From assembly GCA_017506865.1 (NCBI GenBank), contig JAFCMP010000095.1, positions 62,001-126,000 on the forward strand: a stretch of DNA of 64,000 bases, given 5' to 3'. This DNA is from Tribonema minus. Its lineage: Eukaryota; Sar; Xanthophyceae; Tribonematales; Tribonemataceae. The position numbers and the translations under genes are program-made. Positions within the stretch are counted from its first letter, which is position 1. Each line of letters opens with the position of its first letter. Shown piece after piece: positions 1 to 60,446 of the stretch. The notes below the pieces were generated by a model. That model did not search any database. It saw only the letters and a list, made by a program, of their open reading frames with translations, and had not been told where the DNA came from.

Positions 1-886
1 GTGTCCATCTGTTCCCCCCTCGACTCCGCCATGTGCGTCACAACGCGCAAAGCACTACCTACCCGGCCAGTGCAGTATACTGAGTCTACATAGTCTCATG
101 TATGTACACATCGCATCGGCACGCTCAATACTGCGGCAGGGGGGTGAGAAGTACAAGTTGAGACAGTTTCAGACTGCCACACGACATGTAGATTCCGTAC
201 AGCAAGCTTCAAGTTAGATGCCATTCATCTGAGCTTTTTCGCGCCCTGAGCGAGAAATAATAAAAAGTACAAGTTAATAAAAAGTACCCAGTACTTCCCC
301 TGCAGTACATGTACTTTATTTACTTCCGCTGGACGGGCGGAGACCCCATGAAACATGCAAGATATGCAGCTCGTGTGCTCGCGTCAAGCGTGTTCTGACA
401 TGCGTTCATGTACGCAGCTGAACACATGTGCTACCTACACTTTGAAACGGTCACTGACCGCAAGGCAACTACAAATTGGCTTCCATGAGGACTTCATCCG
501 CCTCAGAATCCCCGCTACTGCCTCTACGAACTGGTGCTGCCAGATACGACACCGTTATGGTGTGCTGAGTCTACATACTCCTGCGTATACTTTGTAGTAT
601 ATTTCAAAGGTTTCAGCAATTTTGGCACAAAGGCAGTTTGCATACTCCTGTGTATACTTTGAACTAGTATATTCTGGATGTACTTGCAAACTCCCATGTA
701 TGTACAGAAGTAGCTGAGCGTCATCACGCACTTGCTCGACCGCGCACAGGTGGAAGGGATGTATTGAGCGAGAATTGACAAAAAGCACTACCCTACGTTT
801 AGTATATTCTGAGTCTACATACATGCATACACGCATGTAAAGAAGCGCGTGAGCATCATCACACATCTGCGCGACCGCGCGCACAG
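1..886. other. Upstream intron/flank sequence, no confident exon
   Basis: I see no confident coding exon here. The stretch lies 5' of the Frizzled-like exon at 887 and probably includes its upstream intron. It holds repeated fragments around a TGAGTCTACATA core (near 80, 564 and 810) and several TACTTTGAAGT-like pieces. Around 721-760 there is a diverged copy of the acceptor and first bases of the exon at 887 (an exon-edge echo). Bases 1-32 can be read as an exon end before a GTGCGT donor, but the frame cannot be fixed. Confidence 0.5.
161..270 (+). repeat. Dispersed element, copy 1
   Basis: This stretch is about 85% identical by eye to 34321-34420. Shared blocks are a TTTCAGACTG start, an ACATGTAGATTCC block, and a TTTTTCGCGCCCTGAGCGAG hairpin-like core followed by AATAAAAAGTAC. 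Shorter, more diverged copies of the core occur at 6840-6862 and, inverted, at 34595-34640, 39341-39394 and 42775-42815. No coding capacity is seen. It may be a short non-autonomous transposable element; the class is unknown. Confidence 0.7.
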
Positions 887-3800
887 GTGGAGGAGAAGTA
901 CTACCCGGGTAGCAGCGGCACTGTCGGCAGCTGCACCAACTTCGACGACAGGTGCGTGCTCTTCAAGTTTGAAGTTACAAGTAAAACCTCCTGAGGGCCA
1001 GGTGCGTGCTTGGCGCCTGCGATACCTTACTAAAGTTTAAAGTTTTAACTCCAACCTGTTGGCCAGGGTTAGAGGTAAGGCTTAGAGGTGCTGGCCCGTT
1101 GGAACAAGCCAAGCAATCCGCCTGCTGGACAACAGGGCTTCAACAACAGGTGCGCGCTCCACGCCGGCATTGCCTTCTTCAAGTTTGAAGTTACTAGACT
1201 CTCAAGGCTGGGGTTGGTGCTAGGGTTGGTGCTACTGTAGTACAAGGTGCGAGGCAGAATGAAATTTGCACCCCCCGGAAAAGTGTTCTGCTCCTACCGT
1301 CCCGGTGGCCTGCATACGCGAAGCCTGCATGTCTGGACATAGGGTCTGCACTTCGCTGCGGCAAGCGTATCAAGTGCGTCAGCGCAGCCCAGGGGTGCTG
1401 CTCACTCTAAGGCTAGGGTTAGGGTTAGGGTTAGGGTTAAGGTTAGCGTTCCGACACTAACCCTAACCCCAGTGGGTCACGCGGTTCACCGAAGGGCGGG
1501 GGCGACTACAGGGGGGACGCGGGACTGTGATGAGCGCTGCTAACCCTAACGCTAACCCTAACTCCAACCCTAAACAGGGCAAAGCAGGCTGCGGCGTGTT
1601 CCGAAGTAAGTCTACCGTTAGCGACATGTTTCATGTCGACGCCTCAGCATTTCCATGCGCAAACCCCTGCCTGGGAACAAGTTAGGGTCGGGTTACCCCT
1701 GCCGCTAACCTTAAATCTAACCCTAACCCAAACCCTGAATGACCCGCGGTAGGCATCTGCTGTAGGGTTAGGGTTAGGGTTAGGGTCTACGGTCTCCACG
1801 TCGGACGTGTCTGGGCCGGGAAAGTAACTGTGCTGAGCGCGCTGCTACACGGCAAGGACTGTGCTTGAATCCACGTCACTTTAGATGATGCATCCGAGCA
1901 TACCATTTGGTGTTGTCATCATTGGTATCAGCATCGCTGCCTGGGAACAAGTAGTTGAGCCAACCGCAATGTGCATTTGCCGTCGGCTTGCTTACGACTA
2001 CATGCGCATGCCTCCTTGTAATACTTCACAGTGAAGTATCAACGTACACAAGAGTATAAGCGCGCACTGCCACATGGTAGTATGCGGATGACCGACCGCT
2101 TCGCGTCCCCGACCGCAACTGCTGCCCGTGCAGGGTCTCCAGGCTGTGCGCGCCTGATGAAACATTTCACGACAGGGTGCGGTGCCGCCAGCTTACCTGT
2201 GACCGCATGTGCACGCCTCTAGTTGTACGTGTTATAATAATACGTGCACATAGTTCAAACATGTACATGGCCATGAGCGCGCATCGCCACATGGTAGAGA
2301 ACGTGTGACCGCTACGCGTAACTGTCCGTAACTGCTGCCCCTGCAGGGTCTCCAGGCTGGCCGTGTTCGGGCCCGAGAAGACCGTTTGGGACACGGCGTA
2401 GCGCCGCCAGCTGTTATACGACGACACACGCATGCCTCTAGTATACGTAATTAAAACACTTCGCAGTATCAATGTGTACATGACTATAAGCCCGCATTGC
2501 CGCATGACAGCAAGTGGATGACCGAACTGCAACGCGCAACTGTCCTCGCCTGGCGCCTCTGCAGGGTCTCCAGGCTGGACGTGTTCGGGCCCGAGACCAC
2601 ATCATGCGACGCGGCGCAGTGCCACCAGCGTACATATCACTACATACGCGTGCCTCTTAGCGTCTGTACAATACTTCGAAGTATCCACATATACATGACT
2701 GCAAGCGCGCACTGCCGCATGATGACCGCTACGCGTAACTGTGCGTAACTGCTGCCCCTGCAGGGTCTCCAGGCTGGACGTGTTTGGTCCCGAGAAGACG
2801 TTTCGCGACACGCCGGACTGCCGCCAGCTTGCATACGACTACACACGCATGCCTCTAGTATACGTAATTGAAATACTTCGCAGTATCAATGTATACATGA
2901 CCATAAGCCCGCATTGCCACATGGCAGCAAGTGGATGACCGACCTGCCACGCGTAACTGTCCTCAACTGCTGCCCCTGCAGGGTCTCCAGGCTGGACGTG
3001 TTCGGTCCCGAGAAGACGTTTCGCGACACGCCGGACTGCCGCAAGTGGGTGTACGCCTATACGTGTCTCTGGTGGGGCACAGACAACGCGCATTTCGACA
3101 ACCGCTGCGGGTCCTTCGCCAACCGGCCGCCGTGCCGGTCATTCTGCGTGCAGGTACGCATGGCGAATGTACTGTTCAGAAGTACAAAATACACAGAGCT
3201 GTGAAGTAAGACCCTGATCTTGCGTGCTCTCAGTTGCCGTGCTGTTAGACAACCGTTGCGCGCCCTTCTCGAATGACCGCCGTGCTGCTCGTTCTGCGTA
3301 CAGGCACATGTAGAATTCAGAAGCACGGAATGCACAGGTACTGCAGTGAAGTGCGCTCCTGGTGCGTCTGTTTTGCCTCACACCTCGCGTGCTCTTAATC
3401 GCCGTGCTATTTGACGGCCGCTGCGGCACCTTCGCCAACCGACCGCCGTGCCGGTCATTCTGCGTGCAGGTACGCGCGCTTGATGTGCGTGAAGCATGAC
3501 CTTCATGCATTTCTTTGCCCCGTGCGTGCATTGCGTGTTCTCAACTGCCGCGCTTTTTGACAATCGGTGCCGCGCGCCTACGCCACCGGACCACTGTGAC
3601 GCTCATTGCGTGAACGCACGTACACATAATTCGGAATGATAGAAGTATAAGACACTTGTTTTGAAGCATGATCAGCTTCTGTCAAATACTTCTGTGAAGT
3701 ATCAAATACTCCTGTCAACTGCTTCAAGTATAAGTATGGCATACTCCTTGAAGTATGGTATGCGATGCATTATTTTGCCTCAAGCCTTTGTGGTGCTCGT

Positions 3801-4941
3801 CGCCTGCTGCAGTGCCTTGGCCAACAACCGCTGTGCCTCTCGTTCTGCCTTTCATTGCCCGTGCCTCGGAGAACCTGTGCCGCTTATTTACCGCGCTTTT
3901 TGGTACTCAAGGTGCAGACCGTTTGTCAACTGACCGCTGTGCCGATCGTTCCACGCACTTGTGCAGCCTTGTACCTGGAACTGTTTGTGGTTTCAATGAA
4001 TGTGTTTGTTGACAACAGGTGCGATGCCTGCCGCAGACCGCCTGCCGCGGTCTTGAAAACTTCAAACCTGCAGTTCAATCCAGTTCATCGGTGCACAAAC
4101 ACTCTCATTGTAACGCGCCCTGGAAGTGCGGTCACCATCACTTTGCTTTCAATGAGTCACGAGCGCCACTGGTGTCCGTACATGTGCTGAGCGTTGATGC
4201 CACCGCTGCCGCCGCCGCTGCCGCCACCGCTGCCACTGCCGCCGTCACCGCTGCCGCCGCCGCTGCCGCCGCCGCTTGAGTCATGAGCTCCATTGGTGTC
4301 CGTACATGTGCTGAGCGCTGATGCCGCCGCCGCTGCCGTCACCGCTGCCGCCGCCGCCGCTGCCGCTGCTGCCGCCGCCGCCGCTGCCGCCGCCGCTTGA
4401 GTCATGAGTGCCGCTGGTTTTCGTACATGTGCTGACGACCGCCTCTGCCGCTGCTGCTACCGCTGCCGCCGCCGCTGCCGCCGCTGCCTCCGCCGCCGCT
4501 CAGGTCGCGGAGGTCTGCGCGAACGACCCCGGCTGGAAGTAATCCGGTTCATCGTTGCACAATCACTCTTCTTGCAACGCGCCCTTGAAGTGCCGCCACG
4601 ATGACGCCGCTTCTGACGAGTCACGAGTGCGCGTACACGTGCTGAGTGCCGCTGCCGCCGCCGCCGCTGCTGCCGCTGCCGCCGCTCAGGTCGCGGAGGT
4701 CTGCGCGAACGACCCCGCCTGGAAGGCGCTGTGCGCAGGCATCGCGTGCCCGCCCATCGCGGACGACTGCGTCCCCGGGCCGTTCGTCACGCACCCCGTG
4801 GAGCCCGACGCGTGCTTCCTGTACGAGTACAACTCGCCGCTGCAGGGCGGCGCGGCGGCGGTGCGCGGCAGCGGCGCGGCGGCGGCAGCGGCGCTGGCGG
4901 CGGCGGCGGCGCTGCTACTGCTGCTGCCGCTGCTCGGCTAG
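887..4941 (+). CDS. Frizzled-type cysteine-rich-domain protein, GPI-anchored (5'-partial)
   Basis: The exons are 887-951, 2982-3153 and 4690-4941 (TAG stop). Phases agree: exon 1 ends AG and exon 2 begins G, making Arg; exons 2 and 3 join in phase 0. The joined product runs YYPGSSGTVGSC, then CRKWVYAYTCLWW, then PPCRSFC, then VCANDPAWKALC. That spacing, with the C-R-x-x-C helix and a terminal Cys pair, is characteristic of Frizzled/Smoothened cysteine-rich domains, which bind lipidated or hydrophobic ligands outside the cell. The C-terminus has a small-residue stretch and an Ala/Leu-only hydrophobic tail ending at the stop. This is typical of a GPI-anchor signal, although a single membrane helix is possible. 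The signal peptide and first exon(s) are not identified and may lie before position 1. A Cys-rich reading at 1284-1373 does not fit the phase. Acceptors are CAG; donors are GTGCGT and GTACGC. Confidence 0.75.
1408..1446. repeat. Interstitial TTAGGG array
   Basis: About five tandem TTAGGG units with one variant lie inside an intron of the Frizzled-like gene. Similar short arrays occur at 1763-1786, 11370-11392, 11888-11916, 17632-17648, 23069-23093, 27838-27869 and 38857-38881. Degenerate CCCTAA/CCCTAG text is scattered through many introns. Confidence 0.9.
2130..2840 (+). repeat. Tandem copies of the 5' edge of exon 2982-3153
   Basis: Four diverged copies of the acceptor and exon start (core CTGCAGGGTCTCCAGGCTG) begin near 2130, 2340, 2557 and 2758, ahead of the intact exon at 2982. 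They are interleaved with similar intron text (CACGCATGCCTCTAG). The later copies also keep GACGTGTTCGG and CCCGAGA; the copy at 2758 is the longest and closest to the real exon. Frames are interrupted in the distal copies, so I treat them as decayed duplicates rather than exons. Confidence 0.85.
3235..3615 (+). repeat. Tandem copies of the 3' edge of exon 2982-3153
   Basis: After the donor at 3154 the exon end (core CAACCGGCCGCCGTGCC...TTCTGCGTGCAGGTACGC) recurs in decayed form near 3250-3310, 3415-3480 and 3560-3610, with a weaker copy near 3820-3860. The copy at 3415-3480 keeps both the exon end and a GTACGC donor nearly intact, so it could compete as a splice donor. Confidence 0.85.
4140..4689 (+). 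repeat. Tandem intron units with GCC/GCT tracts and an echo of exon 3
   Basis: Four units, each starting GAGTCAYGAG and running through GTACATGTGCTGA into a long GCCGCT-rich tract, repeat at about 4150, 4280, 4398 and 4617. The third ends in a copy of the exon 3 start (CAGGTCGCGGAGGTCTGCG at 4500). The fourth runs into the true acceptor at 4689/4690. Ala-rich reading frames here follow from the trinucleotide tract and are not exons. Confidence 0.8.
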
Positions 4942-7458: not shown

Positions 7459-10400
7459 CTATGGCTGCTCTGCTTCCCCCGCGCCTGAGCTGGCTGCCAC
7501 CAGGCTGTTGCCATCCTGCGGCAGCGCTCAGCAGCAAACAGCAGCAACCAACAGCTCAGCAATGGCAACACCTAAACCATCAAGTGTAGACTAAGCTGCT
7601 AGAATCTACCACTTTGTGAGGCAGCGCTCAAGAGCAAACAGCAGGATCTCAGCAGCGCTACACACATACCCACGCCGGTGCAAGCGGAGCTGACCCTGCT
7701 CGCCACCGATGAAGCGTCGCGACGTACCGCAGCGGACACCTTGGCGCAGCGCAGACGCAGCGTCATGCTGTCACTGTTGGCATCGCATCGCAGGAGCGCT
7801 GCAATGTACATCCAGCGCATCAAATTGTGAATGTAGAGCTAGCCCTGAACCTACCCGTAACCCAGACTCTAACCCAAACCCTGACCCGAAGCGCACCTCA
7901 GCGGACACCTTTGCGCAGCGCAGGCGCAGCGTCATGCTGCCGCCATCGCCACCACATCTCAGGGGCGCTCGCTGCATTGTACATCCAACTCATCAGATTG
8001 TGAATATGGAGAGCCAGCCCCAACCCTAATGGGAAAAACAAACAGCCCTGCCCCTGACCGGGAGTCGCGTCTCTGAGTTTCCTTTCCAGATCGTAAGGTT
8101 TAGTGTTCGGGTTAGGGATTTAGGGTTAGGGGTAGCGCACCTCAGCGGACACCTTGGCGCAGCGCAGGCGCAGCGTCATGCTGCGCGGCGCGGCCTGCGC
8201 GACGGTCATGATGGGCGTTGCGTTCATGTTGTGAGCGGAGACGACGCAACCCTACCCCTTACCCATAGTCGACTGTAGACCTGATGAGTCATGGCACCCA
8301 ACCTTACCCGAAGCCTAACCCCTGACCCTAAGCGTACCTCTGCGGACACCTTGGTGCAGCGTAGGCGCAGCGTCATGCTGCGCGGCGCGGCCTGCGTGAC
8401 GGTCACGCGCAGCCCTAACTCCGACTCTCACCCTAGCCCTAACCCATAGTCGTCCTCAGCAGACATCAAAGATCAAACTCTACCCTTGACCCTAACCCTA
8501 GGTGATGGCTTTGAGCGCACCTCGGCGGACACCTTGGCGCAGCGCAGGCGCAGCGTCACGCTGCCGCCCTCGCCATCATATGGCGGCACCGCAATCTGAT
8601 ACAGGCACCGCTACATACATACCCACGCCGGTGCAAGCAGAGCCGGCCCTGCTGGTAAGCGACGATGCTCCTCGACGCACCTCAGCGGAGACCTTGGCGC
8701 AACGCAGGCGCAGCGTCATGCTGCGCGGCGCGGCCTGCGCGACGGTCACGCGCAGCGCGTCCCCCGGCTCCATCGTGATGCTCGTCTCAGGGTGCTTGAC
8801 GACGGCCCCCAGCTCCTCCAGTAAAATGTCGTATATCACCTGGCACAGAGGGTTGGTAGGTAAGGTAGGGTATGGGTAGGGTATGTATGCTGGGTGCTTG
8901 ATGACAGCGCCCCGTTCCTCCAGTAGAATGTCGTATATCACCTGCACGCAGGGGTGGTAGGTAAAGGTATGGGTAGGGTAGGTATGATGATGCATGGTGA
9001 TGCCCATCAGGGGGGTTCTATACCCAGTGTGCGGTATGTCGACACGCGCCGCAGGTGCTCTACCTATACCTGCATACCCCCTGAGCTGAGCCATGATCGC
9101 GTGGCTTAGCTCAGGGGGTATGCAGGTATAGGTAGACTACTTGCCGCGCTCGTTGACGACTCGGACATGCACATTGCGTGCTGTTTTGAGGTACCAATGA
9201 CAATAGGGAGGAGGGCGGCAATTTGCCGCCCCTTTCCCTGTTGTCATTTGTACCCCAGAACAGTGTTGCATTTCAACGACGAGCGCCGCAGGTACCGCAG
9301 GTACCTCCCTACCTCCACACAAGTACTTTGAATCATAGCTGAGCCATGCTGCGCGCTCACCTTGCCGCCCCTCTCCCTGTTGTCATTGTAGCCCAGCACA
9401 TAGGCTACATGCGGCTCGTCGGCGGTGCGACGCAGGTACTCAATGAGCCAGTAGCGCGAGCTGTCGCGCGCAATCTTGTTGGCCGCCTGCAGCGTGCCCT
9501 CCTGACTCGCGACGAGCTTCGCGACATCTGCGCCTGAGAGTGGCGTCTGGCCGTGCAGCCACCGCTTGACCTGCGAGTTGAAGACGATGTGAAGTTAACG
9601 TTCAACAATAGCAACTTCAACAGAAAAATGACCTCGAAGCCGTTGCAAATATAGAGTTCAAGCTGATGTTCGACAACATGTTGGCCGCCTGCAGCGTGCC
9701 CTCCTTGCGCGCGACGAGCTTCGCGACGTCTGCACCAGAGAGGGGCGCCTGCCCGTGCAACCAACGCTTGACCTGCGCATTGCAGAGATGAAGTAAATTT
9801 GAAGTTGATACTCAAACACCAGCAACTTCCACAACTTGAGCTGACAGTGCAGGCGCGAGTTGCGGAGAGGACGTGAAGTTGAAGTTGATGTTCAACAGCA
9901 TCAACTTTAACAGAAATATGAGTTTCGCGACGTCTGCGCCTGAAAGCGGCGTCTGCCTGAGCAGCCACCGCTTGACCTGACAGAGCAAGAGAGTTGCGGA
10001 GGGGCAGAGTTGAAGTTGGTATTTGAACCAAAATCATTGTCAACAACATGAGCTGACGAGTTGCAAATGTCATGTTCAAGTTGAGGTTCAACAACATCAA
10101 CTTCAACAGAACCACGAGCTTTGCGACGTCTGCGTCACACAGCGGCGCCTGCCCGTGCAGCCGCCTCTTGACCTGACAGAGCAAGCGGTTTGTGGAGATG
10201 GGATTAAGTCGAAGTTACAATTCAACAACAGCAGATAACAACCTGCCACAAGAGGCGTCTGCCCGTGCAGCCACCGCTGGACCTGACAGAGCCAGCGCGG
10301 CAGAAGCGGAGACGAGGTCAACTTCAAGTTGATTCACTTCATCAACAGTGTGACATTGGGGACGTCGGCGCCACCAAGGGACGTGCAGCCACCGTTCCAT

Positions 10401-13400
10401 CTGATGGTGCAAGAGCGCAGGGGGGTGGGGGGGGGGGGGGGCGTGCAGCAAATTTTGTTGGCCGTCACTCCAGCAGAAAGAACACATTGCTGACTTGTAG
10501 AACAAATGCTGACCGCAAACAGCCGCCACAGCATCACCAGTCATCTTAGACAACTTGTGCAGTAGTTGCCTGGCAGTGCACCACCAGGTCAGCAAGGGCC
10601 GTATCGGTGATGACCACTGCACGTATCTCGTTCAAGTATTTGAATGCACTTCCAAGTAGGTGAAAAGTCAATTCAACATGTACTTTTCCTCGTGTATTTG
10701 CAGCTACTTCATTTGTCACCCGAAGTCATGTAGACTTGCCTGCCAGCGCACGACGAGGTCGTTGAAGCGGTATATCGGCGACGACCACTGCACGTATTCT
10801 CGTTTGAAGGCTTGATTGTACTTCAAGTTTGAAGTCTTCGATTGACATCAAACTTAGGCCTAACAATCCATAGCCAACATGACTGAGTATATCAGTTGAA
10901 CTTGCCTGCCAGTGCACCACGAGGTCATTGAAGCGCCACCACTGCACGTATCTCGTTCAAAGTATTTGAATGTACTTCAGGCATCTCATTCAAAGTAATG
11001 TAAACTTGCCTGCCAGTGCACGACGAGGTCATTGAAGCGCCGTATCGGGGACGACCACTGCACGTAGCCTCGTTTGAAAACTTTGAATGTACTTCAAGTG
11101 TAAATATATCATTTAAAGTCTTTGTTAACTTGCCTGCCAGTGCACCACGAGGTCATTGAAGCGCCGTATTGGCGATGACCACTGCACGTAGCCGTCAAGA
11201 CCCAGGCCCCAGTGTATGCCGGGCTCCGCAGAGACGATCGCGCCCGACATGAAGCGGTAGCTCGCCACCGCACGGCAGTACCTGTGACACAATGAGCAAG
11301 AGAGGGGTCATTGCATCAGATACTCTGTGCTCACGCTCAAGGAAGCCGTACAGCCAGTGACGTACCTGTAAACCCTAACCCTAACCCTAACTCAAGGAGG
11401 GCCCGCGGATAACTGTCCGTTGGCTCGTGTGCGGTGCCGTCTTCGCGTCTGCGTCACAGCGTGAATTTGCGCTGAACTTGCGCAATGCTGTGGTAGAATT
11501 TCACTCCTAGGTCGGTTAGGGATGCGATGTTGCGCACTAGCACAGGCAGCAGAGGAGGCTGAGAGGCATCGCCAGACCATGGGTGCTGAGCTTATGAGAG
11601 CGAATATCACTACTAGTAGAGACACGAAGCAGAATGTAACCGTCAGACGGTAGATGTAACCGCCAAGCAACGCACATTCCCGAGAACACAACTGACACGT
11701 GCCATGAAACTGCTGGGTCTGAACCCCCCCCCCCCCGTAACAGATGATTGTGACAGAAGCAGGAAACGGTCCATACTCTAACAGGTTGAGCATACCTCAT
11801 CACCTCACGGCAGAGAGCTCAGAGTGATCGCATCTACGTCTGTTCACAACATGCAAGCTCGCACAGCGCGCTCTGCAGGGACAGAGTAAGGTTAGGGTTA
11901 GGGTTAGGGTTAGGGCCAGGATCAGCGCATCGGGTCCGCGGCGTTTGAAAGGGGACGCTTCCCACGCCTCATGTTCACATCAGCCAACGACTTCAACTTA
12001 GCTATAACACAACTGTGTGCGTGCGGGCTCGTGCTGGCGGTGGAACGGCACAGCGACGATTGCGTTAAATTTCACATATGCGAGCAGCAGTGTCAGCACT
12101 TGGCCGCAACTCTGACTCGTGAAAGACTTTGACTCCACGCTCCACGCCGAGCCACGCGGAGTGCCTGGAGCCTCCCTCTCATCCCCCCGCTGACACAAGC
12201 TTCAACTGCAACTTCAACAATAACTTCAACACCTTCTTCCACTCAACTTCCACCGTCACCGGCCAGGAACGTGCCGCAGGTGGGGCGCAGCGACGCGTCA
12301 CCTCCAATGCAACAAAACTTCAACTAAAAAAAACTTCAACCTCCAAACCCCCACTCACCGCGCCGGGAACTGCTCCAGGTAGCCCTCGTCTGGCGGCGAC
12401 GCGGGCGCGCGCTGGCAGCGGAACGGCATGCCAATGCCCTGCTCCCTGCCGAGGCGTGCCATGCCCTCGCCGCTCATGATCATGAGCTCGGTGACGAGCT
12501 GCACGCTGGAGCGGTCGGGGTCGTCAAGAGAGACCACGATGCCGCGGCCGTCCTCCGCTGCGGCGTCGGGCACCACCTGCATACATGTATACCCGTGCAT
12601 ACATACTTCAATAGGGCACACACTTCGGAAAGCGTGCTTGGTATGAGCATTTGAGCATCCTTTGCAGTAATTTCACAGTCAGCGCGACGATGATGCCGCG
12701 GCCGTCCTCCGCTGCGGCGTCGGGCACCACCTGTGTATATACATGGGTATACGCACTTCAAGAGTGTGTTTCGGTTTGAACATTTGGATCGCAACGCGAT
12801 GTCACCTTCTCATTTTTTGTTCAAATAACTAATTTGCAGTAAGCGCAACATCGATGCCGCGGCCGTCCTCCGCGGCGGCGTCGGGCACCACCTGCACACA
12901 GGTAACCATGCGTACATGCTTCGAATGGGCATGCTTGGAGAGTGTGCTCCGTGTGAGCATTTGGAATGCAGGCTTGATATCTCCTCTGCAGTCATTAGCT
13001 GGAAGGGAGGCGGCGAAGGGAGACAACTATGCCGCGACCGTCCTCCGCTGCGGCATCAGGCACCACCCGCATACATATATACAGGTACTCCAAGATTGTG
13101 TGCGGTGTGAACGTTTGGATCGCAATGCGATGTCACCTTCTTGCTTTTTTGTAGAGGTAGTAACTTTGCAGTAAGGGAGACGACGATGGCACGACCATCC
13201 TCCGCAGCGGCATCGGGCACTGGCTGCGTACATAGAAGTACATCATACACGCATACTTCTTGAGTGCAGTTCAACGTGCCGTGGCACGAGCGAGCGCAGC
13301 GTTTCACCGACAGCACCAGCAGCAGCAACAGGCAGCAGCAGCAGCACCACCAGCAGCAGCAGCGGCAGCAGCGCTCACCTTGATGGTGTTCTGCGGCGCG

Positions 13401-16400
13401 CGCTTGAAGCGGTCCACGCTGCCGTTGCTGGAGCGGTACTGGTACCGCAGCCTGCGCAGCGGCGCAACAAGCAGCAAAGCCACACACAATCAGCAAGTGC
13501 GAAAAGCGCAGCAACTTCTGATGTTTCCGTTGCTGATGCTGGCACACCACGGTCAACTGCAGCAACCCCTAGAAAAACTGCATATACTCCCGAAATACAC
13601 TCCCGAAGTACACAAAATGCGCAGGTGATCGTGAAGCTTCCTGGCCCATTCTGGCACCGTCCCACGTGTGTCATAACAAATGGTTGTTGCACAGCCTTGT
13701 AATGCGCGCACCCCGGTGATATCAAGCACATCAACTCCTTTGAACAAGCCTGCTCAGCACCCTAGGGCCTACCCCTAACCCTAGCCCCCCTAACCCAGTA
13801 CCCACCCCTCGCCGCCCTCGGCTTCCCTGCCGTCTTTGATCCCAACCCTAAATTCACAAGTAACCCACACCCTAATTTTAACCCAACCTCAAGCCCTTGA
13901 CCCTGATCTGAATACTGCACTTGGTGTAGTGCGCATGCCTACCTAATTCCTACCCTAACCCTACGCCCCTCCTGATCCAAAATGCACCTGGCGCAGTGCG
14001 TGTGCCTGCCTAACTCCCGCTTGCCCCCTTCAGCGATCATGCCGCCGTCTAACCCTAACCCTGCCCCCGTCCCCAACCTTAACGCCAACCGTACCCCTAC
14101 CTCTGCCCGTATGGCTAACTCTAGCCTTAGCCACACCCTCACCCTACCCTCAACCCTAGCCCTAATACCGCACCTGGTGTAGCGCACGAGCCTGCCAATT
14201 TCCCACTCCTCGCCGCCCTCTACGGCCATGCCATCGTAACTCCAAACCTACCCCTTCCCCTCACCCTCACCCTCATGCCAAGCGTATCCCTACACCTGCC
14301 CTGATGGCCAACCCACACCTTCAAATTCTCGTTCTAGTCCTGATACCGCACCTGGCGTAGTGCGCGAGCCTGCCAAGTTCCCACTCCTCGCTGCCCTCTA
14401 CGGCCATGCCGTCTAACCCTAAACCTACCCCTAACCTCAACTTTCATGCCAACCGTACCCCTACCCCCTCCCCTTACGCCTAACCCTGACCCAAAAACGA
14501 ACTCTAACTCTGGCCCTAGCTCTAACCGAGCCCTAATGCTGTACCTCACGTTATATTCAAGCCTGCCCAGTTCCCACTCCTCGCCCCCCTCTCCGGCCAT
14601 GCCGTCTAAACCTACCCTAATGCCAACCGCACCCCTACCCCTGCCCATACAGCTAACCCTAACCCTAGCCCTAACCCTAGCCCAAACCTAGCCCTAATAC
14701 CGCACCTAGCGTGGTGCGCAAGCCGACTTCCCACTCCTCGCCCCCCTCAGCGACCTTGCCATATATCCCTTGTTACAATACCAAACTTACCGCTGCCCCT
14801 ACCTACCCCTAGCCCTAGCCCTAGCCCAAACCCTAACACAGTACCTCGCGTAATGTGCAAGCCTGCCAAGTTCCCACTCCTCGCCCCCCTCCACGGCCAT
14901 GCCGTCGTACAGCATCTCATCCACGTGTTCGTAGGTCAGCCTGGCGCGCGGGGAAGATGCAAGTTCAACAACTTGCAGTTAATTTGAAGTTGTGGACTGG
15001 CGACGCAGTTTAGATGGACGCTAACGGTCGTAGGTGCCTCACCTTCAGATACAGGGCGCTTGTGAAAGACGGTGTATATGTGACGCGATAGGGAGGTGAC
15101 AGCATGCGCCTCATCTGTGTGTATGTATTTGTCGTACAGCATCTCGTCCACATGCTCGTAGGTCAGCCTGCGCGCGCGGGGCAGACACAACTTCGAGCGG
15201 CGCACTTGGACAGTAGGCCATTCACTCCAGAAGCTGCCTCGACTGCAAAGCCAGGATACATGTCGTGCAGTGCTCGCGCACACGCACATGCCGGTGCGTC
15301 ATAACTGCGGTCCTGAGCGCTATGCTTCAACAAACTTCCCGTATGGCAAAGTAGCTTGGGCTTCGGCGCCCCAAGCCGCGCACAACAGACACTTCAGAGT
15401 CGTGCGATAGTGCAGGGCGGTGGGGCGTACGCACACAGCAGCAAACTGAATTGTACGTGACCACAATCGTGCTCGCCACCACAGTCAGGTCCTCTATCGC
15501 GCCAGCGGCGTTCAGAATGACGCCCATCCTGAGCGCTGGGCACGGCCAACCCATTACGTTGTGCTTAAACACTGTATTATGATTACATCAAAGTACTTGA
15601 GCGCTGCTTGCTGGCTGCAGAGAGCCTGAACCGCACATGAAAGGCGCACTTGCCGCCGGTATGTTACCACTGCCGTACTCAACGCTATGCCTCCGACCAC
15701 TTCAACAATGATAACGAAATCAACATCCTAACGCAACACAATGATACTTCACAACCAGTGTCGTACAGCAGTGCAGAACGACGGATCATACTTCAGAGGA
15801 GCGCACTCACCTGTACGTGACCACAATCGTGCTCGCCACCACGGTCAGGTCCTCTATCGCGCCGGCGTCGTTCAGAATGACGCCCATGCTGAGCGCTGGG
15901 CACGGCCGGCCCGCCGTCAGGCTGAGAACGTTCTCCGCGAGGTCCCTGGGGAACATGGGCACGGACTGTTCCGGCAGGTACAGCGTGGTCTGGCGCCGCG
16001 CGGCGTCCTGGTCGAGCGCTGAGCCCTGCTGCACCCACCTGCGGAGTTGAAGTTGAAGTTTGTAGTGTGGAGGAGTTTGAGGGGGGGGGGCAGCGGAGTG
16101 AGCTGTTGCGGTGGAGCCGATTAGGCGCCGTCTGCAATGAGTTAGGGTAAGGAGGGTTTTGAAGACCCACCCATGAAGTTGAACCTTCTGTTGTTGACAA
16201 AATTGTGGGGGCGGGGCAGGGTGAGCGCGTGTGCGATAGAGCCGATCAACGGCCGGGTGCGAAGAGCAGAGTTACGGGCTAGGGTCAGGGGTTTATGTTA
16301 ATGTTTTCATCCCTGACCCTAACCCTAGATGCTGATGATGGACTGTTTCGGCAGGTACAGCGTGGTCTGCCGCTGCGCGGCGACCTGGTCGAGCGCTAAG

Positions 16401-33328: not shown

Positions 33329-41942
<8,614 letters not shown>

Positions 41943-43413
41943 GGGCAGCAGCAGTGCTCCGCAGCAGCGCTCCGCAGCGGCTGCAGTGCTCCGCAGCGGC
42001 TGCAGCGCTCAGCGGCAGCAGCGCTGCTCAGCAGCCTTGTGGCACGCGCGGCCTTGCGGCATGCGCGTGCACACGTACACACTCTCTCTCTCTCTCCGTT
42101 GCTCTCGAGCGGTGCATCGGCAGCGCTGCCGCCGCCCCTGTAGAGGAGGTTGAGCGCCGAGGCTGGGCATGGATAGGGGGTTCGAAGGGGGGGAGGGGGG
42201 GGGGGGGGGAGGAGGCAGGGGGAGCGGGGTAAGGAAACGCCCGATCCGGCGTGCAGCGCCCGGACCGGTGCGCTGTCGCAAATAAACACGGCGCGGCCTT
42301 TTTTGGTGCCTGTGACACTCCATTAGCAGCGGTACGACGCGCGCTGAGCCGCGCTGTCGGGGGGTCTGAGCGCTGCCACCAGACGGCAGTAATGACCAGA
42401 GGGGTGGCGACGCGTGACTGGCGGCGTGCGCCGCGACTCACGCGCGCCGGCCATTGGTACAGAGTGTTTTGCTGTGGTCATTCGTGCGGCCGCCGCTGTT
42501 GAACTGGCGACTTCCATCAATGTGTATGTCCAGTCGAGCGACGCCACGTGCATGTATGTATGCGCACTTCCTATCTCTGTGTGTGCGTCGCGCTGAGGGT
42601 ACAGGCAGTACTTGTGGACTTGTATTCATGAAGGCCCCAAGGGACGCCAGGTGCCACACGTATCCGTTTGCAATGCCATCTTGAAGTTTACTGCTAATGT
42701 AGCAGTCTAGTCCGCAGGGTTGTTTTGCAAGCCTGGACCTTTGTGCACGCAGACATCGACTTGCTTGTGTTGTCAGTTTGATTAGATTTTCGCTTGAGGG
42801 GCGAAAAACCCTGTAGCGTTCAGAGTTTGTGCAGTGGTGGCACTTGCCTACCACTGAAAGGTTGAATATAGCTGCAGGTTTCATGATTGGGGCTCACTGA
42901 ACCCACCAGCTGCTTTGAAGCGGCTGACAGTGACGCATCCAAACAGCACCACCGTAAGGAACACCATCAGCACATCATGATTTACTGAGCCATTGGATGT
43001 TGACCAGATGCGCCAACGACAGCACGTGCCAGCGGGGACTTCCTTTCAAAAACGCTTTCCGTTTGCAGGAAAGTACAGAGCAGCACCCAGGCAAACATCA
43101 GGCAGGAAAGCAGACTTTATGAGGCTCACTTCAGCTTGCTCCACCAGCGCTCGCTTGAAGAGGTGAATGCGAAAGCGGATGCATGAGAACTCTGGCGCAA
43201 GATTTGCTGTTGCTGCGCTGCTTGAATCTGCTTGCATGCCAACCAGGAGTCAAGTATGCAATCGGAGACCTGGCGCATGCAGGCGCAAGTGACGAGGGCA
43301 ACTGTATGTATCGCGCTCTCGCTCTCTCCGCACTTCAACGCGAACTTTAAGACTTCAAGACATTTTCTGGAGTTCCAGCTGGCCTGCTTTTGCAAAGTCG
43401 GTGCAGCAGATCG
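41943..43413 (+). other. Kinase 3' flank, no further gene
   Basis: CAGCGCTC-type repeats (41945-42045), a CT microsatellite (42081-42097), a G-rich run and a consensus AATAAA (42281-42286) that may be the kinase polyadenylation signal. Diverged copies of parts of this flank recur at 46390-47130 and 48690-48780. No coding exon is supported. Confidence 0.55.
42281..42286 (+). terminator. Candidate polyadenylation signal
   Basis: A consensus AATAAA lies 339 bp after the kinase stop. It is followed by a T-rich stretch (CCTTTTTTGGTG) resembling a downstream element. Confidence 0.4.
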
Positions 43414-50114: not shown

Positions 50115-53100
50115 TCACCGCCGCGCCTTCTTGAGGCTGCTGCCGGGTTCCGCGGCAGAGGCGGCGGCGCTCGCGTCCGCGTCCGCTGCGGCAGCGGCGG
50201 CGTGCCGCAGCGGCGAGCCAGCGGCAGCGGCGGCGGATTGCCGCAGCGGCGAGCCGGCGGCAGACGCGTTGTCGGCGGGGGGGCTCGCGGCGCGCGCGCG
50301 CTTGCTGCCCGAGGAAGCCTGTTTGATGGCGGGGAGCGCAGCAGGCAGGTACGGGCGCAAAGCGTGAGGGGGGGGGGGCACAGGCATGTGTGCTCATAGC
50401 GGGGGGGGGGAGGTATGCACACTGGGGGGTTTCTGAGCAATGGTTTGTTGGAGCCGATTGCAAGTTCCCATCAGATTAGTTCACAAGTCAACTACGATTG
50501 CACTCCAAATCATGTCGCGCACGGTCTTCGCTTCGCCTTTCCTGTAAGACACGGTGCAGATGACAGTCTGACCAGCAGTCGCACTAGTGCACGGATGAAT
50601 CAAGCACACGCAGCACTCACCCTCTCCTCCAGTCACTGCAAGCGGTGCGCGCGCAACTGACGCATGATTCAAGGTGGATCGTTGGGGACAGATTGTAAGT
50701 CGCAGTCACACTACCAACTCAAAGGATACTTCAGACGCGCACAGCGCCGCCGACTCTGACTCTGATCACCCTCTCCTCCGCGGACGACGCCACTGACGAG
50801 TTGGCGGCGCGATCGCGCACCTCCTCGTTCGCCGCGACCGACTCATGATTCAAGTTGTGTTGTAGCATTTGACTCCATGTCACAGGCGGACTACTGGCGC
50901 AAGGATAGTTCAAACGCGCGCAGCACGCAGCGCCGCCGACTCTGACTCACCCTCTCCTCCGCGGATGACGCCACCGACGAGTTGGCGGCGCGGTCGCGCA
51001 CCTCCTCGTCCGCCGCGACCGACTCGGCGACGGCGAGGATCTCGCGCTCGGGGAGCGCGCGGCCGGAGAGCGCCGCCACCGTGATGGTCGCCGCAACGGC
51101 CTCCTCCTCGAGGGTCCCCTGCGTCGCGCCCGCCTCGGACGCACGGCAGACGAGTTCGCGCACGGCGGCGTGCAGCGTGTCGTGCTGCGGCGGCGGCAGC
51201 AGGGAGACCGAGGGCGCGCCACCCAGTAGGGCGGCGGCGGCAGCAGGGGGGGGATTGGCAACGACAGGCGGCGACGGTGCGCGCGGTGGCGGCGGTGCGT
51301 GCGCGCCAGCAGCAGCAGCAGCGGCGGCGGCGGCAGCGTCAGCAGGCGGCGCGCAGTGCAGCGAGGGAGCATCACTCACAGTGACGGCGGCGGGGAGCAG
51401 CGGCAGCCGCCCCCCAGGGGCCGCCTCCGAGGGGATGGGGGAGGGGATGGCGCCGGGGGGGGTGGGCGCGCGCGCTGCAGCGGAGGCGCGCGCCGCCGCC
51501 GTTGTGTGCGGAGGCGTGCTGCGCGTCGGCGGCTGGCGGTTGCGCAGGTCCGCGATCGTGTCGCGCTGCTCCTGCACAGTGGCGTCGCGCGCAGCGACGT
51601 CGTCCTGGAGCTTCGCGAGCATGGCCTGAAAGGGGGGGGGGTAGCGGGGGGGGGGGGGGGTAGGGTAGGAGTTAAGGTTTTGGGGGAAGGAGGGGTGAGG
51701 GCAGTGCGCACAAGCTGCACCCGAAGCTCGGGAGGCGTGTCTGTGCGTGGGAGGGGGGGGGGGACACGAGGCATGCACAATGGGCACGTTTGCTGACGCA
51801 CACAGCACACTGAACATTGGGCACCAGGCAGAGGAACAGAACAGAAGGTGTTAGAAAGCGTGATCCATGCAGCAGCACTCAGTGGACAGGGTGCCCACAA
51901 CTTCCAAAATCGGTCAGCGCAAAAGGGGCGGTGGCGGACAGGGCGTAAAGCAGACCGGAGGGGGGGGGGGGGGGGGGGCTGTGACGAAACACAGCGCTCG
52001 CCTGCTGCTTGGTCAGGAGGTCCTCGTAGAATGGGGGTGGGGGGGGGGACAGCACATGAATTCAAGCAGCAGCAGCGCTGCACTAGTGCTGAGAATCCGG
52101 CAGAGCAAGGGGGGTAGGGGGTACAGCGTGACTCTCGCGGCGGCAGCAGCGCTCACCTGCTGCTTGGTCAGGAGGTCGTAGTACTTGCCGGTGAGGGCCA
52201 CGAGACCCTCGCGCTCGGTCGTCGCGCCCGATTCGGCCTTCGCCTGCGCCTGTGCGTCAACTGCTGCCTGCACGTCTTGCGCGTTGCACCGGTCGTCCGT
52301 CGAGCTCACGCGGTCTGCGCACGGGGGCAGGGGGGGGGGGGGGGGAGTTGAGGCACAAAGGGGCTGCAGAAGGGGACAGGGGGATGCTGTCACTGTTGAC
52401 ATGGCGACAGCGTGAAAACATAGTAGGCGCGCGCTGCGTCCCCCGGAGAGCAGAGGCGCTCAGGAGCGATGCTGGCTGCGCACGCAAGACAGACGCGCAT
52501 ATGCAGTTGAAACTTCAACTCCACCAACAGGGACCTTCAGGCGGCGCAAGCGTCTACGCGGTCAATCTGGCTCGGTTGCCGTCGCCATGCGAGCCATCAA
52601 GAGATATTGCAAGGTGCCTCGCAGCAAGGCCAAACTCTCCTACAATTGCAGCTCCACAGAGAACCACGCAAGCACAACGCTGATAAAGTGGCGATCCTCA
52701 AATACTCTGCAGCTTCAAGACTGTCTTTGGATGCATGTCCAAACCTCCCAACAGGGTGCTTGCATGCCTGAACTACTGCCGGCGCACTCGCGCATTAACT
52801 TACCCATAAGACTAGCTGCTTGGACACACGAAACACGTAGACGCAGTGTGGGGGGGAGGGGGGGGGGGGGGACAAAGGGAAGCAGGCACAGCGAGCAGCA
52901 GACACATCAGTTAGAACAAGACCTTGATACGGTCAACGCAGGCAGGCGCCAATGTTTGGAGATGCTCAACGCAGGCGCCTCCGCTGAGAACTTGCGGGAA
53001 GTACAACAAGTAAGCTCGAGTGCAGGGCACCGACAACTGCGGGCACCTGTGGGCGTAGTAGCACAAAAGCGCTACATACATAGGATGTGGGTACGGGAGG

Positions 53101-56100
53101 CACGCCCGCTCGCGAGGGAATGTGCACGTACGCAGTGACATTTGCATGCTGCCTGCTGCCATGCGCAGTTGCGCCCCAAGACACACCCATGCTTGGGTCA
53201 GGGTTTGGGTTAGGTTAGGGTTAGGTTTGGACATGTCCATGCCTGGGCGCCCATCTCGTCCGCCGCTGACGCGGTTCCATGCGCAATGACGCATGCAGAT
53301 GCGTACGGCAAAATCAGTACACCTACTTACTGTATGTATACTCTACCTACCCTAAGCGTCCACACGGCGGGGGGGACATACAGCGTACGAAAGGGGCGGC
53401 AACACGCAAGCGTACATACATACCTATCAGCGGCAAAGCTGGCCTCCACGCAATTCTACGCTACCTACATACCCTTGCCAACATCCTCACCCAAAGAGCA
53501 AGCGTACGCGGTGCATGTACCCATCAGAGCAAGCGCGCGACACTGCATGTACCTATCAGGGCGCGGCTGGCCGCCTCCTGCGCGGCAAAGCTGGCCTCCA
53601 CGCCATTCTACGCTACCTACATACCCTTGCCATCACTGGCACCAGAAGAAACACAGAGACACACAGCATTCGGTACATACCTATCAGCGCGCGGCTGGCC
53701 GCCTCCTGCGCGGCAAAGCTGCGCTCCTGGCGCTCAAACTTGGCCTCCATGACGCGCGCCATGCTCAGCGCGTCGGCGCGGGACTTGGCCTCTGACTCAC
53801 GTGCCGCGTCAGCAGCGAGCTGCGACTGCGCAGGGGTGGAACCAGGTGGGTGGTGGCCGGGGAACCACGACCCCTGTTTAGACGTGTTGATGAAGGGCAA
53901 GCGCTGGGGGGGTTCAAAGACTGATGAAGGGGGAGCACGGGGGGGGTTCAAAGACGGATGCGCGCGTGTGCGAGTGCGCGTGCGTGTATGTGAAGAGGAA
54001 GGGGTTGGGTGATAGGGGGGGGGGGCGGAGGGGGCAGGCGGGTGGTGGTAGAGGGACCAGACCCCCCTTTTTAGACGTGTTCATGAAGGGTGAGCACTGG
54101 GGGGGGTCAAACATGGATGCGCGTGTGTGTGCCAGTGCGTGTGTGTGTGAGGGGGGGCAACACAGCACTGAACACTCTGTCATAGCCCGCAGTAACTCTA
54201 CACGAGCGCAACAAATGAGCGGCAGGGAACTTGACCCTGAGCAGCTCTGGCCAACAGCAACCAGCACAGTGAATTGGCGTGGGGGGTCTCAGTGTTCCGC
54301 TACGCGTCAGTCAGCGCTCACCTGCTTGAGGATGGCGTCTATGGCCAGCTGCTGCTTCTCGTACATCTCATCGCGCTTAGCCATCTGCTCGCGCATCTTG
54401 CCAATCTGGTCGCGGTGCTCGGCGCTCGCAGCCGTGGCGACGTTGCTGAGCGGTGATGAGATGGAGGAAGCGGCGCACGTGCGGTGAGCGCGTTTGTCGG
54501 GCCATTGGGCACTCAGAGCTTGCACGCATTCAGCTCACGTCCCATTGCGGAGCGGTGCCACGAGGACAAGAAGGCGAACGCACATGAGGTGAAGTCTGCT
54601 CAAAGGTTATAAAGTGGCTCCTAGTGCTTGCACGCTCCGTTGCCAAAGCTCAGCTGCGGCAAGAACAGCTTAAATGAAAAACGAATCAAAAAGATCGTTG
54701 AGCTCTAAGGTGACAAGGGATGGTTAGCCGCGAGTGCCTTCCACCAATAACCGTGGTCGCCGCTGCTGCAGTCATTGGCCACGAGTCAAACAGTGCCACC
54801 GTATCCACCAGTCAAAAAAGATTTCTGTGTGCAAGCTTTCTAGCGTTCGAGGCATGGGTGTAACAGCTTCAATGTCATCTCACCACTAGCGACTCAACTT
54901 ACCACACATGTCTCCGCGCTCAGCGAGTGCAGTGCGGAGCCCATACCTGTGGGTCCAAGCGCAGCAATGCGCTGCATGTCGATCGATCGCTTCTGGCAAT
55001 GCTGGGCGTCGACAAGGCGCTGACTGGTGTGACTGGCAGTCTGAGTCATGACCCAGCCTCTTCCTTGAGACCCAGCCTATGACTCACAACTCAGGTCCTA
55101 TACTCACACTCTGATCCAAATCCAAATATGCAGAGCCAGGACCATACAAACCTGTCTTGTCACTGAAGTTCACAAATACTGCAAAGTGTCATTGGGTGAT
55201 TAATCAAGCCACGCCCCACAGCCTCTTGATCACGGCTCAGCCACCACCCGCCACTTCCACTCAGCTGAGCGCGCGCAACTCAGCTTCAAGCCCGCGACGC
55301 TCCACAAGCGCAACGCTCTGCAGTGTGCAGAGGCGTACATACCTGAAGTCCCAGAACTTAGCGTACGACGCATGGTGATCTCACCGTAGCCGTGCTCAAC
55401 ATCAACACAGCGCACTAGCTGCGTGACTCTAAATCTGAGTTGTGGGGACTCGGGGGGCCCTACAACTCACCTGAGCCCCCTGGCCCCCAGCGACTCAGAC
55501 TCTACGACGTCGCGACTCAACCTCGGACTCAGACTACTGACCTCGTGCCAGCGGGATGCTGAGCAGCGCTGCCACCTACGTCGGCGGGGTGCTGAGCAGC
55601 GGCGGCAGCGGCAGCGCCGCCGCCGCTGCCGGATACGTACCTGTCTTCCCACAGCTTGGCGATGCGCTGCATGTTGATCTCGTTCTGGCCCTGCTCAACG
55701 TCGACGCGCCGCTCGAGCTGCGCCTGGACGTCCATGAACTGCCCCGCGCGCTGCTGCGTCGCGGCCTGCAGCTGCATGATGGCGCGGTTCTGCTGCTCCG
55801 CCACCTGCGGCGGTTCGAGCGCGCGCGCGCATGAGAAGGCCGGTGAGTGAGCAGTGCAGGTGGGCGTGCGTGAGGGGCGAGCGGGGGCTGCATCGCGCAG
55901 CGTGGAGCCGCAATTGCGCTGCATGGTGGCCTAGTGAGGGGCGCGGGCGAGAAGGCGAGCGCACGTACGTCCCACATGATGGAGCAGTTCTACTGCCCCA
56001 TGATGTGGTGGGGCGCTTGAGCGAAAAGGCGAGCCCGCGCGCAGGCAGCGCGGGCCGCACAGCAATGAGCGCGCTTACATCAAGCCTTCACACAGGTTGC

Positions 56101-58688: not shown

Positions 58689-60446
58689 CGATCATAACAC
58701 GGGAAGCGCCTCTGGATGCTCCGGTACAAGTGATTCTCACAGGCCAGCTGATTCTTGGTGCTTGCTGTGCTTTGCGTGACTGAAATAACGCTAACAGACA
58801 TCACGCCTGGCTTCGCTATCGCTCCGACACACCGTCACCGGTTTTTCCAGAATGTTCGATGACTGGGGGCAGGGGGGAACACCGAGGAAAGCTTAGTCAT
58901 CGGCGGTGTATCATCGTGCAACCTTGAGAAAAGCGGGCTATTGTCAGGGAGCTAGTTTTGCTTCAGCCCGCATGCTGGCTAACAATCCATGATGGCTGCA
59001 ACGACAGACAGCTGGCCACCCCCAACCATTGTGCATACATGGACTCAATGGAACAATGCATTCTAGATTGAGGCAGCTGCAGAACCTTTGGGGAAAGGAA
59101 ACCCGTTCGTTCCAAACCATTTGCGTAGCAGACTACTGCTGAGTGCTGCTTGAAAAAAGAACTCAAGCAAAATACACACTGCCTAAGCCACAAGCTGACA
59201 CGCTGTTTCACAGTGCAGTGTTGCCTTTGGGACGATCCGACATGAGTGACGTTGCCTCTAACGAATAGCGAACTTCAATGACGAAGGATGAGTCACAAAT
59301 GTTCGCTGAGGTGTGACGGCGCGGTCGTCGGTTGCCTACATAAGCGGTTGCCTATTTTGATGGAGTGATCTCACACTTGGTGTCCTCTTGGGAGGACACC
59401 GCACACATTGTGGCATCATGCTGGCAGCGTAGTCACCACCACACCACACGCTTTACCAACCCACCACAATCACTTGAAGTTCTGCTGGCAAAGAGCCAGT
59501 GCTCAGCAAGAAAAAAAGGGTTACCCCCGCCCCCCCCTAAAAAGGGAAAGCGGAAGGGTATTGCAAGCTGTTGACTTCGCTGTCCAATTCTACTTCGCTG
59601 TCCGTATTGCAACTGCAAAGCAATGACATCGAGTACACCATGTTCCTAGGGACGAAGTCACTAGGTCTCCGTTTGCACATCGTGCAAAAGACCCAAAATC
59701 GCAATAACTTCTGAACTAGAAGCCTGTTTCTCATCCTGTTTGGTGCATGGTACAGACAATACTGTTAGGTATAATGATGATGCAACAGATCTGCAGCAGA
59801 CCAGTTGTGTCATGCTGTGGATAATTACAAAGCCTCAAAACAGGGTTTATTCGGATTAAAAGAGCTTGTCTGTCTGTGTGTGCACCGAAAACCCCGATAT
59901 ATCGCCGGTATTCATGTCACATCACATGAACAGCTGGCTGTGCTACAGCACAACGCGCGAACAGTGCAGCGGAGGTCATGAGCCTGTAACAAGGGAATGA
60001 TCTACGACGTCGGGCGTCATACTATGAAACCCTAAGCCAAGTAGGGCAAGCCATGGCGAATGCGGCGATTGGGTGTGTAGATGAGCGGTCATAACCTACG
60101 GTCAATCAAGTAGGAATTGATGTAGGTTTTGCATCACCAGTGCCAAATCAGCAGGCATGCAACACCCAGGACATCGCAGTCAAGCACAGGCAGGGCGGCA
60201 TTGTGGTTTGTTGTGAAGGATACGGGCAATTTGAGAGCGTATGGCACAGCATGCTGCAGTGAGCAGGCCACGGCGGCACAGTGTAAAGCATCACAGGGCA
60301 CACATTCATGTATGCAAAATCATTATGGTGGGGCAGAGACTGAGCCTACTATTGCACTGCATTTAATTTGGGCAAATGTAAGCACACGCGGACTATGTAG
60401 TAGTTGTTCCAAATATGTGAGCTCGGACAGTTCAGGGGGACATGGT
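58689..60446. other. Intergenic stretch, nothing recognised
   Basis: Composition is closer to balanced than in the gene-rich part. It contains the 5' flank of the ankyrin/coiled-coil gene, a poly-C run near 59525-59537 and a TGTCTGTCTGTGTG stretch. No exon, RNA gene or element is supported. Confidence 0.5.

Follow-up and report, generated by a model that had tools for sequence, protein, structure and literature searches.

Introns of Tribonema minus (Xanthophyceae) often contain degraded copies of the edges of the exons that adjoin them: copies of an exon's 3' edge lie in the intron that follows, and copies of its 5' edge in the intron that precedes. We describe these copies, here called exon-edge echoes, in a 64,000-nucleotide stretch of contig JAFCMP010000095.1 (assembly GCA_017506865.1, positions 62,001 to 126,000; G000:C95:62001-126000 in our numbering, hereafter the window) and in genes on other contigs. 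Across 14 genes, the following intron holds a degraded 3'-edge copy for 42 of 95 exons and the preceding intron a degraded 5'-edge copy for 26 of 95, a pattern that our controls confirm as real and far above chance. We consider it likely, with a probability of roughly 0.6, that the echoes are the scars of frequent short, local, same-strand duplications that straddle one splice site and are silenced by splicing.

Exon-edge copies have a fixed polarity

Every exon was searched against the two introns flanking it, against the opposite strand and against introns from other genes; a first run covered 77 exons from ten genes and was repeated with 108 exons from 14. Of 87 matches in downstream introns, 76 reach to within 5 bp of the exon's 3' edge and none reaches its 5' edge, while 47 of 52 upstream matches reach the 5' edge and none the 3' edge; 16 of the 139 matches reach neither. 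Exons compared with introns of other genes gave 0 echoes in 380 comparisons, and the opposite strand gave 1 in 95 downstream and 1 in 95 upstream. The first-pass annotation of the window had named the lack of an excess over shuffled exon-intron pairs as grounds for giving up the pattern; in this approximation of that check the excess stands, as does the annotated placement of donor copies in following and acceptor copies in preceding introns. No copy of a whole exon with both splice sites was found among the 139 matches of the 108 exons, the largest copy covering 85% of its exon.

Among the ten genes whose models rest chiefly on homology, 28 of 69 donor borders and 14 of 69 acceptor borders have an echo, and the proper edge is reached by 51 of 56 downstream and 25 of 30 upstream matches; the corresponding figures for the four genes built wholly or partly by hand are 25 of 31 and 22 of 22, with no match reversed in either group. 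Within the window, where an echo was scored if the adjoining intron held a copy of 36 bits or more, 32 of 64 borders are affected (14 of 32 acceptors and 18 of 32 donors). Echoes thus occur in all five annotated multi-exon genes on both strands, at half of the borders rather than at most of them, and one to five copies stand at a border here and up to seven elsewhere, against the one to six first described for the window. They were found on six of the seven contigs that supplied genes (C5, C51, C95, C235, C279 and C516; none on C511). Among the same-strand self-matches of the window, 115 of 118 lie at most 4 kb apart; the copies are in direct orientation and close together, as expected of tandem genomic duplication.

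The analysis is based on the assembly sequence alone (158.2 Mb in 554 contigs). GC content in the window is 52-69% in 2-kb bins, and the contigs sampled span 0.29-1.97 Mb, with C2 and C3 starting in long CCCTAA arrays. The test set comprises five genes from the window and nine from other contigs. Gene A (modelled at 2982-4941, plus strand) was built by hand and is without a Pfam match; gene B (22952-8681, minus strand) encodes an RNB-domain ribonuclease (PDB E 2e-28; Pfam RNB E 1.5e-35); gene C (25606-30838, plus strand), also hand-built, has a thioredoxin domain (Pfam E 3e-6); gene D (33330-41943, plus strand) encodes a PKA-like kinase (best PDB match E 2e-111); and gene F (58688-50951, minus strand), hand-built, carries ankyrin repeats (Pfam E 3e-33). 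Seven exons of gene D were recovered from a human PKA chain with a purpose-written spliced protein-to-genome aligner. Gene B was modelled from a partial protein alignment, and its remaining exons were placed manually, guided by reading frames and splice consensus. An independent set was drawn from ten chaperonin loci and one kinesin locus. CCT gamma, eta and epsilon and the kinesin were modelled with PDB chains, three further CCT-type genes with the chain of eta, a paralogue, and two Cpn60-type paralogues, whose family is our own reading, with a query taken largely from the same genome; the loci on C135 and C544 were left out of the counts. Inner exon borders in the gene models are GT-AG or GC-AG. 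Unclear exon ends were set as unknown (gamma, alpha, C235b, C279b, cpA and cpB models), the flank then being at most 1,500 bp; a false 28-bp exon was deleted from the kinesin model and a donor shifted by hand. The sequences upstream of the first modelled exon of gene A and downstream of the last modelled exon of gene B, beyond which the next exon is not known, were treated as intron. Copies with less than about 22 bp of exon escape the search, which is thereby biased toward copies with short intron parts.

Anatomy and arrangement of the copies

The exon part of a copy measures 22-143 bp (median 55.5 bp) and is 72-100% identical to the working exon. Nearest border-spanning pairs are spaced 125-188 bp apart (middle half). 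In 32 of 46 such pairs and in 40 of 58 intron-only nearest pairs from the ten genes, the repeat is shorter than 0.8 of the distance between the copies, so that other sequence usually lies between them; 18 of the 58 intron-only pairs have a ratio of at least 0.8. Direct repeats flank this filler, as they would after fill-in of a staggered break, and other histories could yield an identical picture. Two spacers, 15552-15790 in gene B and 28879-28957 in gene C, matched only themselves in a search of the 158 Mb genome in which very common words were skipped. An introner or transposon as the source of the filler was rejected on these self-matches, the two spacers being a sample of many.

In gene B, on the minus strand, exon 22171-22271 has donor copies at 22041-22095 and 21928-21981. 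Exon 20249-20455 has acceptor copies at 20573-20674, where homology stops 6 bp beyond the splice site, and at 20850-20880, together with donor copies at 20108-20194 and 19985-20059. The acceptor copy of exon 19327-19670 (19741-19813, 97%) loses homology 7 bp beyond the splice site, and the donor copies of this exon, 19218-19248 and 18915-19051, have a head-to-head telomere tract (19157-19208) between them. Single acceptor copies accompany exons 17544-17620 (17941-17973) and 14845-14940 (15131-15167), the latter also having four donor copies (14722-14760, 14545-14606, 14352-14413 and 14189-14238). Exon 15811-16038 has acceptor copies at 16340-16415 and 16508-16529 and a 96-bp donor copy at 15452-15547 (96%), whose clear homology stops at the last exon bases. 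Four acceptor copies precede exon 12359-12576 (12686-12730, 12852-12891, 13016-13066 and 13173-13220); in this array the flank of copy 1 matches copy 3, and that of the working copy matches copy 2. Exon 11134-11281, which has a GC donor, is followed by donor copies at 11010-11069, 10906-10937, 10740-10796 and 10570-10625; its CTGGCAGGCAAGT junction is kept in three of these four (near 11010, 10906 and 10740) and altered in the farthest. Exon 9361-9570 has four acceptor copies (9679-9772, 9920-9976, 10114-10172 and 10251-10282) and one donor copy (9223-9262). Finally, exon 8681-8839 has an acceptor copy at 8892-8941 and five donor copies (8521-8564, 8338-8413, 8141-8208, 7897-7940 and 7730-7770), of which the farthest alone has a long flank in common with the working copy.

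In gene A, exon 2982-3153 has acceptor copies at 2347-2410, 2565-2623 and 2764-2827, with flanks common to the working copy, and donor copies at 3245-3303 and 3410-3469, and exon 4690-4941 has one acceptor copy (4504-4539, 97%). In gene C, exon 28550-28868 has donor copies at 28958-29053, 29322-29380 and 29500-29558; exon 30189-30310 has an acceptor copy at 30053-30112 and a donor copy at 30376-30409 that stops 2 bp before the splice site, and exon 30671-30838 has an acceptor copy at 30486-30525. In gene D, exon 36713-36940 has an acceptor copy at 36546-36651 and a donor copy at 36991-37043 that contains a stop in the exon's frame; exon 37623-37709 has three donor copies (37741-37795, 37841-37893 and 37938-37991) in a tandem array, 37623-38112, in which the entire unit of exon edge and intron is repeated (Tandem Repeats Finder periods 86 and 99). 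Further copies in gene D lie on the donor side of exon 39602-39658 (39735-39767 and 39873-39906) and on both sides of exon 41110-41249, with an acceptor copy at 40973-41029, further shorter copies from 40550 in the self-comparison, and a 38-bp donor copy at 41357-41394 that is 100% identical. Gene F (minus strand) has weak donor copies of exon 55641-55804 just short of the edge (55349-55423 and 54964-55021, 72-78%), a donor copy of exon 53681-53825 (53553-53599) and a 27-bp donor copy of exon 52157-52314 (52002-52028).

Distance and identity are related with a mean rank correlation of -0.43 in 16 arrays of at least three copies; a strict distance gradient was rejected, the nearest copy being the most similar in only 7 of these 16. 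The earlier description of the nearest copy as usually longest and most similar is weak: it is longest in 18 and most similar in 14 of 29 arrays of at least two copies. When scores of at least 30 are counted, the working copy's flank aligns better with a farther copy than with the nearest in 8 of 17 arrays, suggesting renewed duplication of copies in blocks.

Copies decay roughly like intron sequence

Once formed, the copies decay roughly like neutral intron. The GT is kept in 56 of 70 donor copies and the AG in 40 of 45 acceptor copies, about the retention that 10% divergence would give. Differences between exon and copy number 746, of which 402 are synonymous, 333 non-synonymous and 11 stops; the 11 stops among 344 non-synonymous changes are near the neutral share, and 22 of 30 gaps in copies shift the frame. 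A coding function of the copies was rejected, stops and frameshifts occurring as in neutral sequence. The possibility that the copies are alternative or decoy splice sites under selection is very improbable: the GT and AG are mostly kept and the synonymous share lies somewhat over neutral expectation, but the retention is about what divergence alone yields, stops make up the expected proportion of changes, and most gaps are frameshifting.

Duplication across a splice site as the probable origin of echoes

The reading that we favor would proceed as follows. A segment of tens to a few hundred bases would be duplicated in direct orientation, typically 100-200 bp off and often with unrelated filler left between the duplicate segments. 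When the segment spans a donor, the first copy would stay joined to the exon and the second would land in the intron; a duplication across an acceptor would give the mirror arrangement, with the upstream copy in the intron. Such duplications would be silent because the exon-joined copy continues to be spliced, leaving the mRNA unchanged, whereas duplications within an exon or of a whole exon would alter the mRNA and mostly be lost by selection. The polarity would be fixed because, from geometry and known splicing, only the copy joined to the exon body can work after a splice-straddling duplication. This geometry suffices, and no special system is required to hold the working exon in place; the first-pass annotation's proposal of repeated local duplication with the working exon in a fixed position is supported, the copies being on the same strand. 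The silent copies would then decay about as intron and be re-duplicated in blocks, lengthening the introns. As for the molecular cause, error-prone repair of staggered breaks, with both ends filled before end joining with filler, may be responsible, and the frequent filler points to it; short template switching is an alternative.

Several observations weigh against this account. Firstly, plain tandem units would abut, and only 14 of the 46 border-spanning nearest pairs do. Secondly, such a unit should often carry more intron than is seen: of 122 copies, 56 keep homology for no more than 17 bp beyond the splice site, and so do 12 of the 25 whose exon part is at least 95% identical (reach was measured against the working copy, by an extension score that is rough). 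Thirdly, border-spanning nearest pairs are too frequent, with 80 seen and 27 expected under random placement with the same splicing constraint, and intron-only pairs too few (60 seen, 113 expected); at 90-95% identity, 18 border-spanning pairs stand against 3.3 expected. Fourthly, the synonymous share of changes is 0.54, or 0.51 when counted once per array (95% interval 0.46-0.55), while 0.43 is expected of a neutral copy whose neighbouring exon accepts synonymous changes alone. The synonymous excess shrinks yet remains once context-dependent mutation is allowed for, and a CpG effect as its source was rejected as too small; allelic donors or conversion are possible causes. Finally, three of the 14 genes are free of echoes (C235b, alpha CCT and one Cpn60-type paralogue) and CCT eta has a single one, and one within-exon repeat has been kept, in an ankyrin exon of gene F.

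Are splice junctions preferred sites of duplication?

The shortage of intron sequence in the copies is also an argument for a competing explanation, in which breaks or template switches begin preferentially at splice junctions, for example at transcription- or splicing-coupled lesions, and the duplicated unit is the exon edge with about 5-20 bp of intron. The short intron-side reach compares with an exon-side median of 55.5 bp, and at 28868, 41249 and 19670 homology stops just beyond the splice site even though the exon part is 95-100% identical. Flanks are unlike within one array, as in copies 1 and 3 of exon 8681-8839. The excess of border-spanning pairs amounts to about 5-fold in odds and is greater among similar pairs: the odds ratio stands at about 5 for pairs below 90% identity and at 23-42 for those above it, whether or not low-complexity sequence is masked, the class of at least 95% identity holding 6 pairs only.

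Part of this excess is an effect of detectability. Selection on one of the two copies slows decay on the exon side of a repeat, and we estimate from substitution rates that this explains less than a 2-fold excess. Gaps arise at 1.75 per 100 columns in intron-intron pairs against 30 in 7,401 exon columns; with a decay bias below 2-fold and this faster gap gain in introns, a residual border excess of 2-3-fold is likely but not proven. Other observations speak against an origin at the junction. In some copies the shared intron is longer and extends as far as the 120 bp over which flanks were aligned, exon-side ends differ within arrays, and the need for about 22 bp of exon favors the detection of short intron parts. 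Intron-only repeats are numerous (the 60 nearest pairs) and resemble border-spanning repeats in spacing in the ten genes. Repeat coverage in these genes is almost level along introns (0.19-0.34); it climbs to 0.37-0.39 in the final 40 bp of exons alone, and acceptors show no increase. The anchoring at borders that was first proposed draws support from the border-spanning excess and from the early end of homology in about half of copies, and loses it to the common, similarly spaced intron-only repeats. Preferential initiation at splice junctions is, on this balance, rather unlikely. In its broadest form, which is of similar probability, splice junctions may be hot spots of duplicative repair, with the exon edge and first intron bases repeatedly copied into the adjoining intron, so that introns would form a dated series of past exon ends and owe their length largely to this process.

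Gene conversion offers a different account of highly identical exon blocks next to unalignable spacers, namely that old tandem arrays drift in their spacers while the exon-like blocks are homogenised with the working exon. The shuffled flanks within arrays and the lower gap frequency in copies (30 in 7,401 columns, against the intron-intron rate above) would fit, but no conversion tracts have been demonstrated, the homologous blocks measure just 22-143 bp, and conversion from the exon leaves the synonymous excess unexplained; we regard this history as improbable. An assembly or consensus artefact is least credible of all: the arrays are repetitive and were judged from assembled sequence, but the copies are 72-100% identical with distinct flanks, strict polarity recurs on six of seven contigs, and contigs of 0.29-1.97 Mb, at least two beginning in telomere repeats, are unlike the setting of a short-read artefact.

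Intron length and differences among genes

Introns with an echo have a median length of 884 bp (n=46) and those without of 468 bp (n=40; Mann-Whitney p 4e-7), and within echo-bearing genes only, the medians are 884 (n=46) and 585 bp (n=21; p 0.003). The annotated enlargement of introns fits these lengths; longer introns also give more room for echoes, so that cause and effect are not separated. Local direct repeats make up 32.5% of intron bases in the 14 genes (0-64% by gene), and the statement that introns are built from such copies is overstated for most of them. The share is 0-46% for the chaperonin loci, and nine stretches taken at round coordinates average 8% direct and 0.5% inverted repeats. 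Genes differ markedly. The Cpn60-type paralogues L038 (C511) and L043 (C516) share several exon sizes (107, 238, 141 and 207 bp); the former has short introns and 0 echoes, the latter longer introns and 15 echo matches. GC content showed no clear correlation with echo differences among the 14 genes.

Two further repeat-rich stretches were noted in the window. An open frame of 425 codons at 43351-44628 contains many ankyrin-type repeats (of the type GHLEVLQWARANGCPWD, period 81 bp; Pfam Ank_4 E 2.9e-23), and a stretch without a modelled gene at 61627-62895 contains large local direct repeats (355 bp apart, 81%; others 172 and 188 bp).

Interstitial telomere tracts

Telomere-type hexamers are also concentrated in introns, with 102 in 55 kb of intron and 1 in 13.6 kb of exon in the ten genes. 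Internal tracts lie in the window at 1419-1466, 1682-1726, 17193-17238, 19157-19208 and 37113-37130; their repeat is the one found at the starts of C2 and C3, as in interstitial telomeric sequences elsewhere defined, and the genome has yielded one telomerase RNA-binding domain (E 3.6e-19). Orientation switches within 30 bp run TTAGGG to CCCTAA 295 times in the 158 Mb genome and CCCTAA to TTAGGG 16 times (overlapping matches counted), while a reversed-pattern control gave 0. Of 47 tracts in a 252-kb sample, 7 switch orientation, always head-to-head. This order looks as if telomerase had capped both ends of a break before they were joined; for two mouse lemur loci, PMC8537989 proposes a second telomerase acting on the other side of a break. 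Head-to-head tracts fit heavy error-prone repair in this genome. Telomere repeats were rejected as the likely source of most echoes: CCT gamma has 13 echo matches and introns without TTAGGG or CCCTAA. Non-telomeric direct repeats of at least 26 bits stand on both sides of 3 of 15 head-to-head tracts (L057, L059 and window 19157), the flank being only about 130 bp for 8 of the 15. Together, the hexamer-free echoes of CCT gamma and the 3 flanked tracts make the tracts look like a separate repair scar.

Relation to known systems

Intron growth is mostly told through transposon insertion. Here, part of it is directly legible in the form of decayed local duplications. Splicing acts as a built-in sieve, which lets through only copies that straddle an exon edge or lie wholly in an intron. 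As a record of what exon ends once looked like, the copies could serve to date intron growth, to estimate the rate of small duplications, and to help ask whether splice junctions are hot spots of breakage; paralogues with and without echoes provide a natural comparison.

The first-pass annotation knew of no named system that does this. Serial exon-edge copies in introns appeared in none of the titles or opening abstract lines of the literature matches listed, from a collection that lacks most subscription journals. A single boundary-crossing duplication is already known: in a potato RdRp gene, one duplication across an intron-exon boundary created a new intron (PMC4974935). A serial, genome-scale record did not turn up among the matches listed. 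As in the potato gene, the duplications reported here are direct and straddle one splice site, and most splice signals there were inherited from the parent junction. Unlike that one event, which made a new intron and added exonic sequence, the echoes reflect many events in existing introns with the modelled mRNA unchanged.

Other known processes resemble the echoes in part. Tandem exon duplication involves a whole exon and both splice sites, unlike any of the 139 matches, which include 0 full-length copies. Small tandem duplications arise in cultured cells when CST and Pol alpha-primase fill in breaks with 3' overhangs (PMC8355091); there, too, tens of bases are duplicated by filling both overhangs before end joining. 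Those breaks were made by Cas9, the copies were scored as adjoining, and splice sites played no part; action of this pathway in the present genome is hypothetical. Introners likewise change introns on a large scale within one genome, but they are elements copied into many genes, unlike the local repeats and the two self-matching fillers tested here. A related framework is that of intron gain, for which routes through tandem duplication and through break repair have been proposed (PMC3443670). Like those models and the Daphnia repeats discussed there, the echoes combine duplicated splice-site segments with direct repeats round an insert and a proposed role for break repair; unlike the products of those models, which make introns, the copies observed in T. 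minus lie inside existing introns, several per border.

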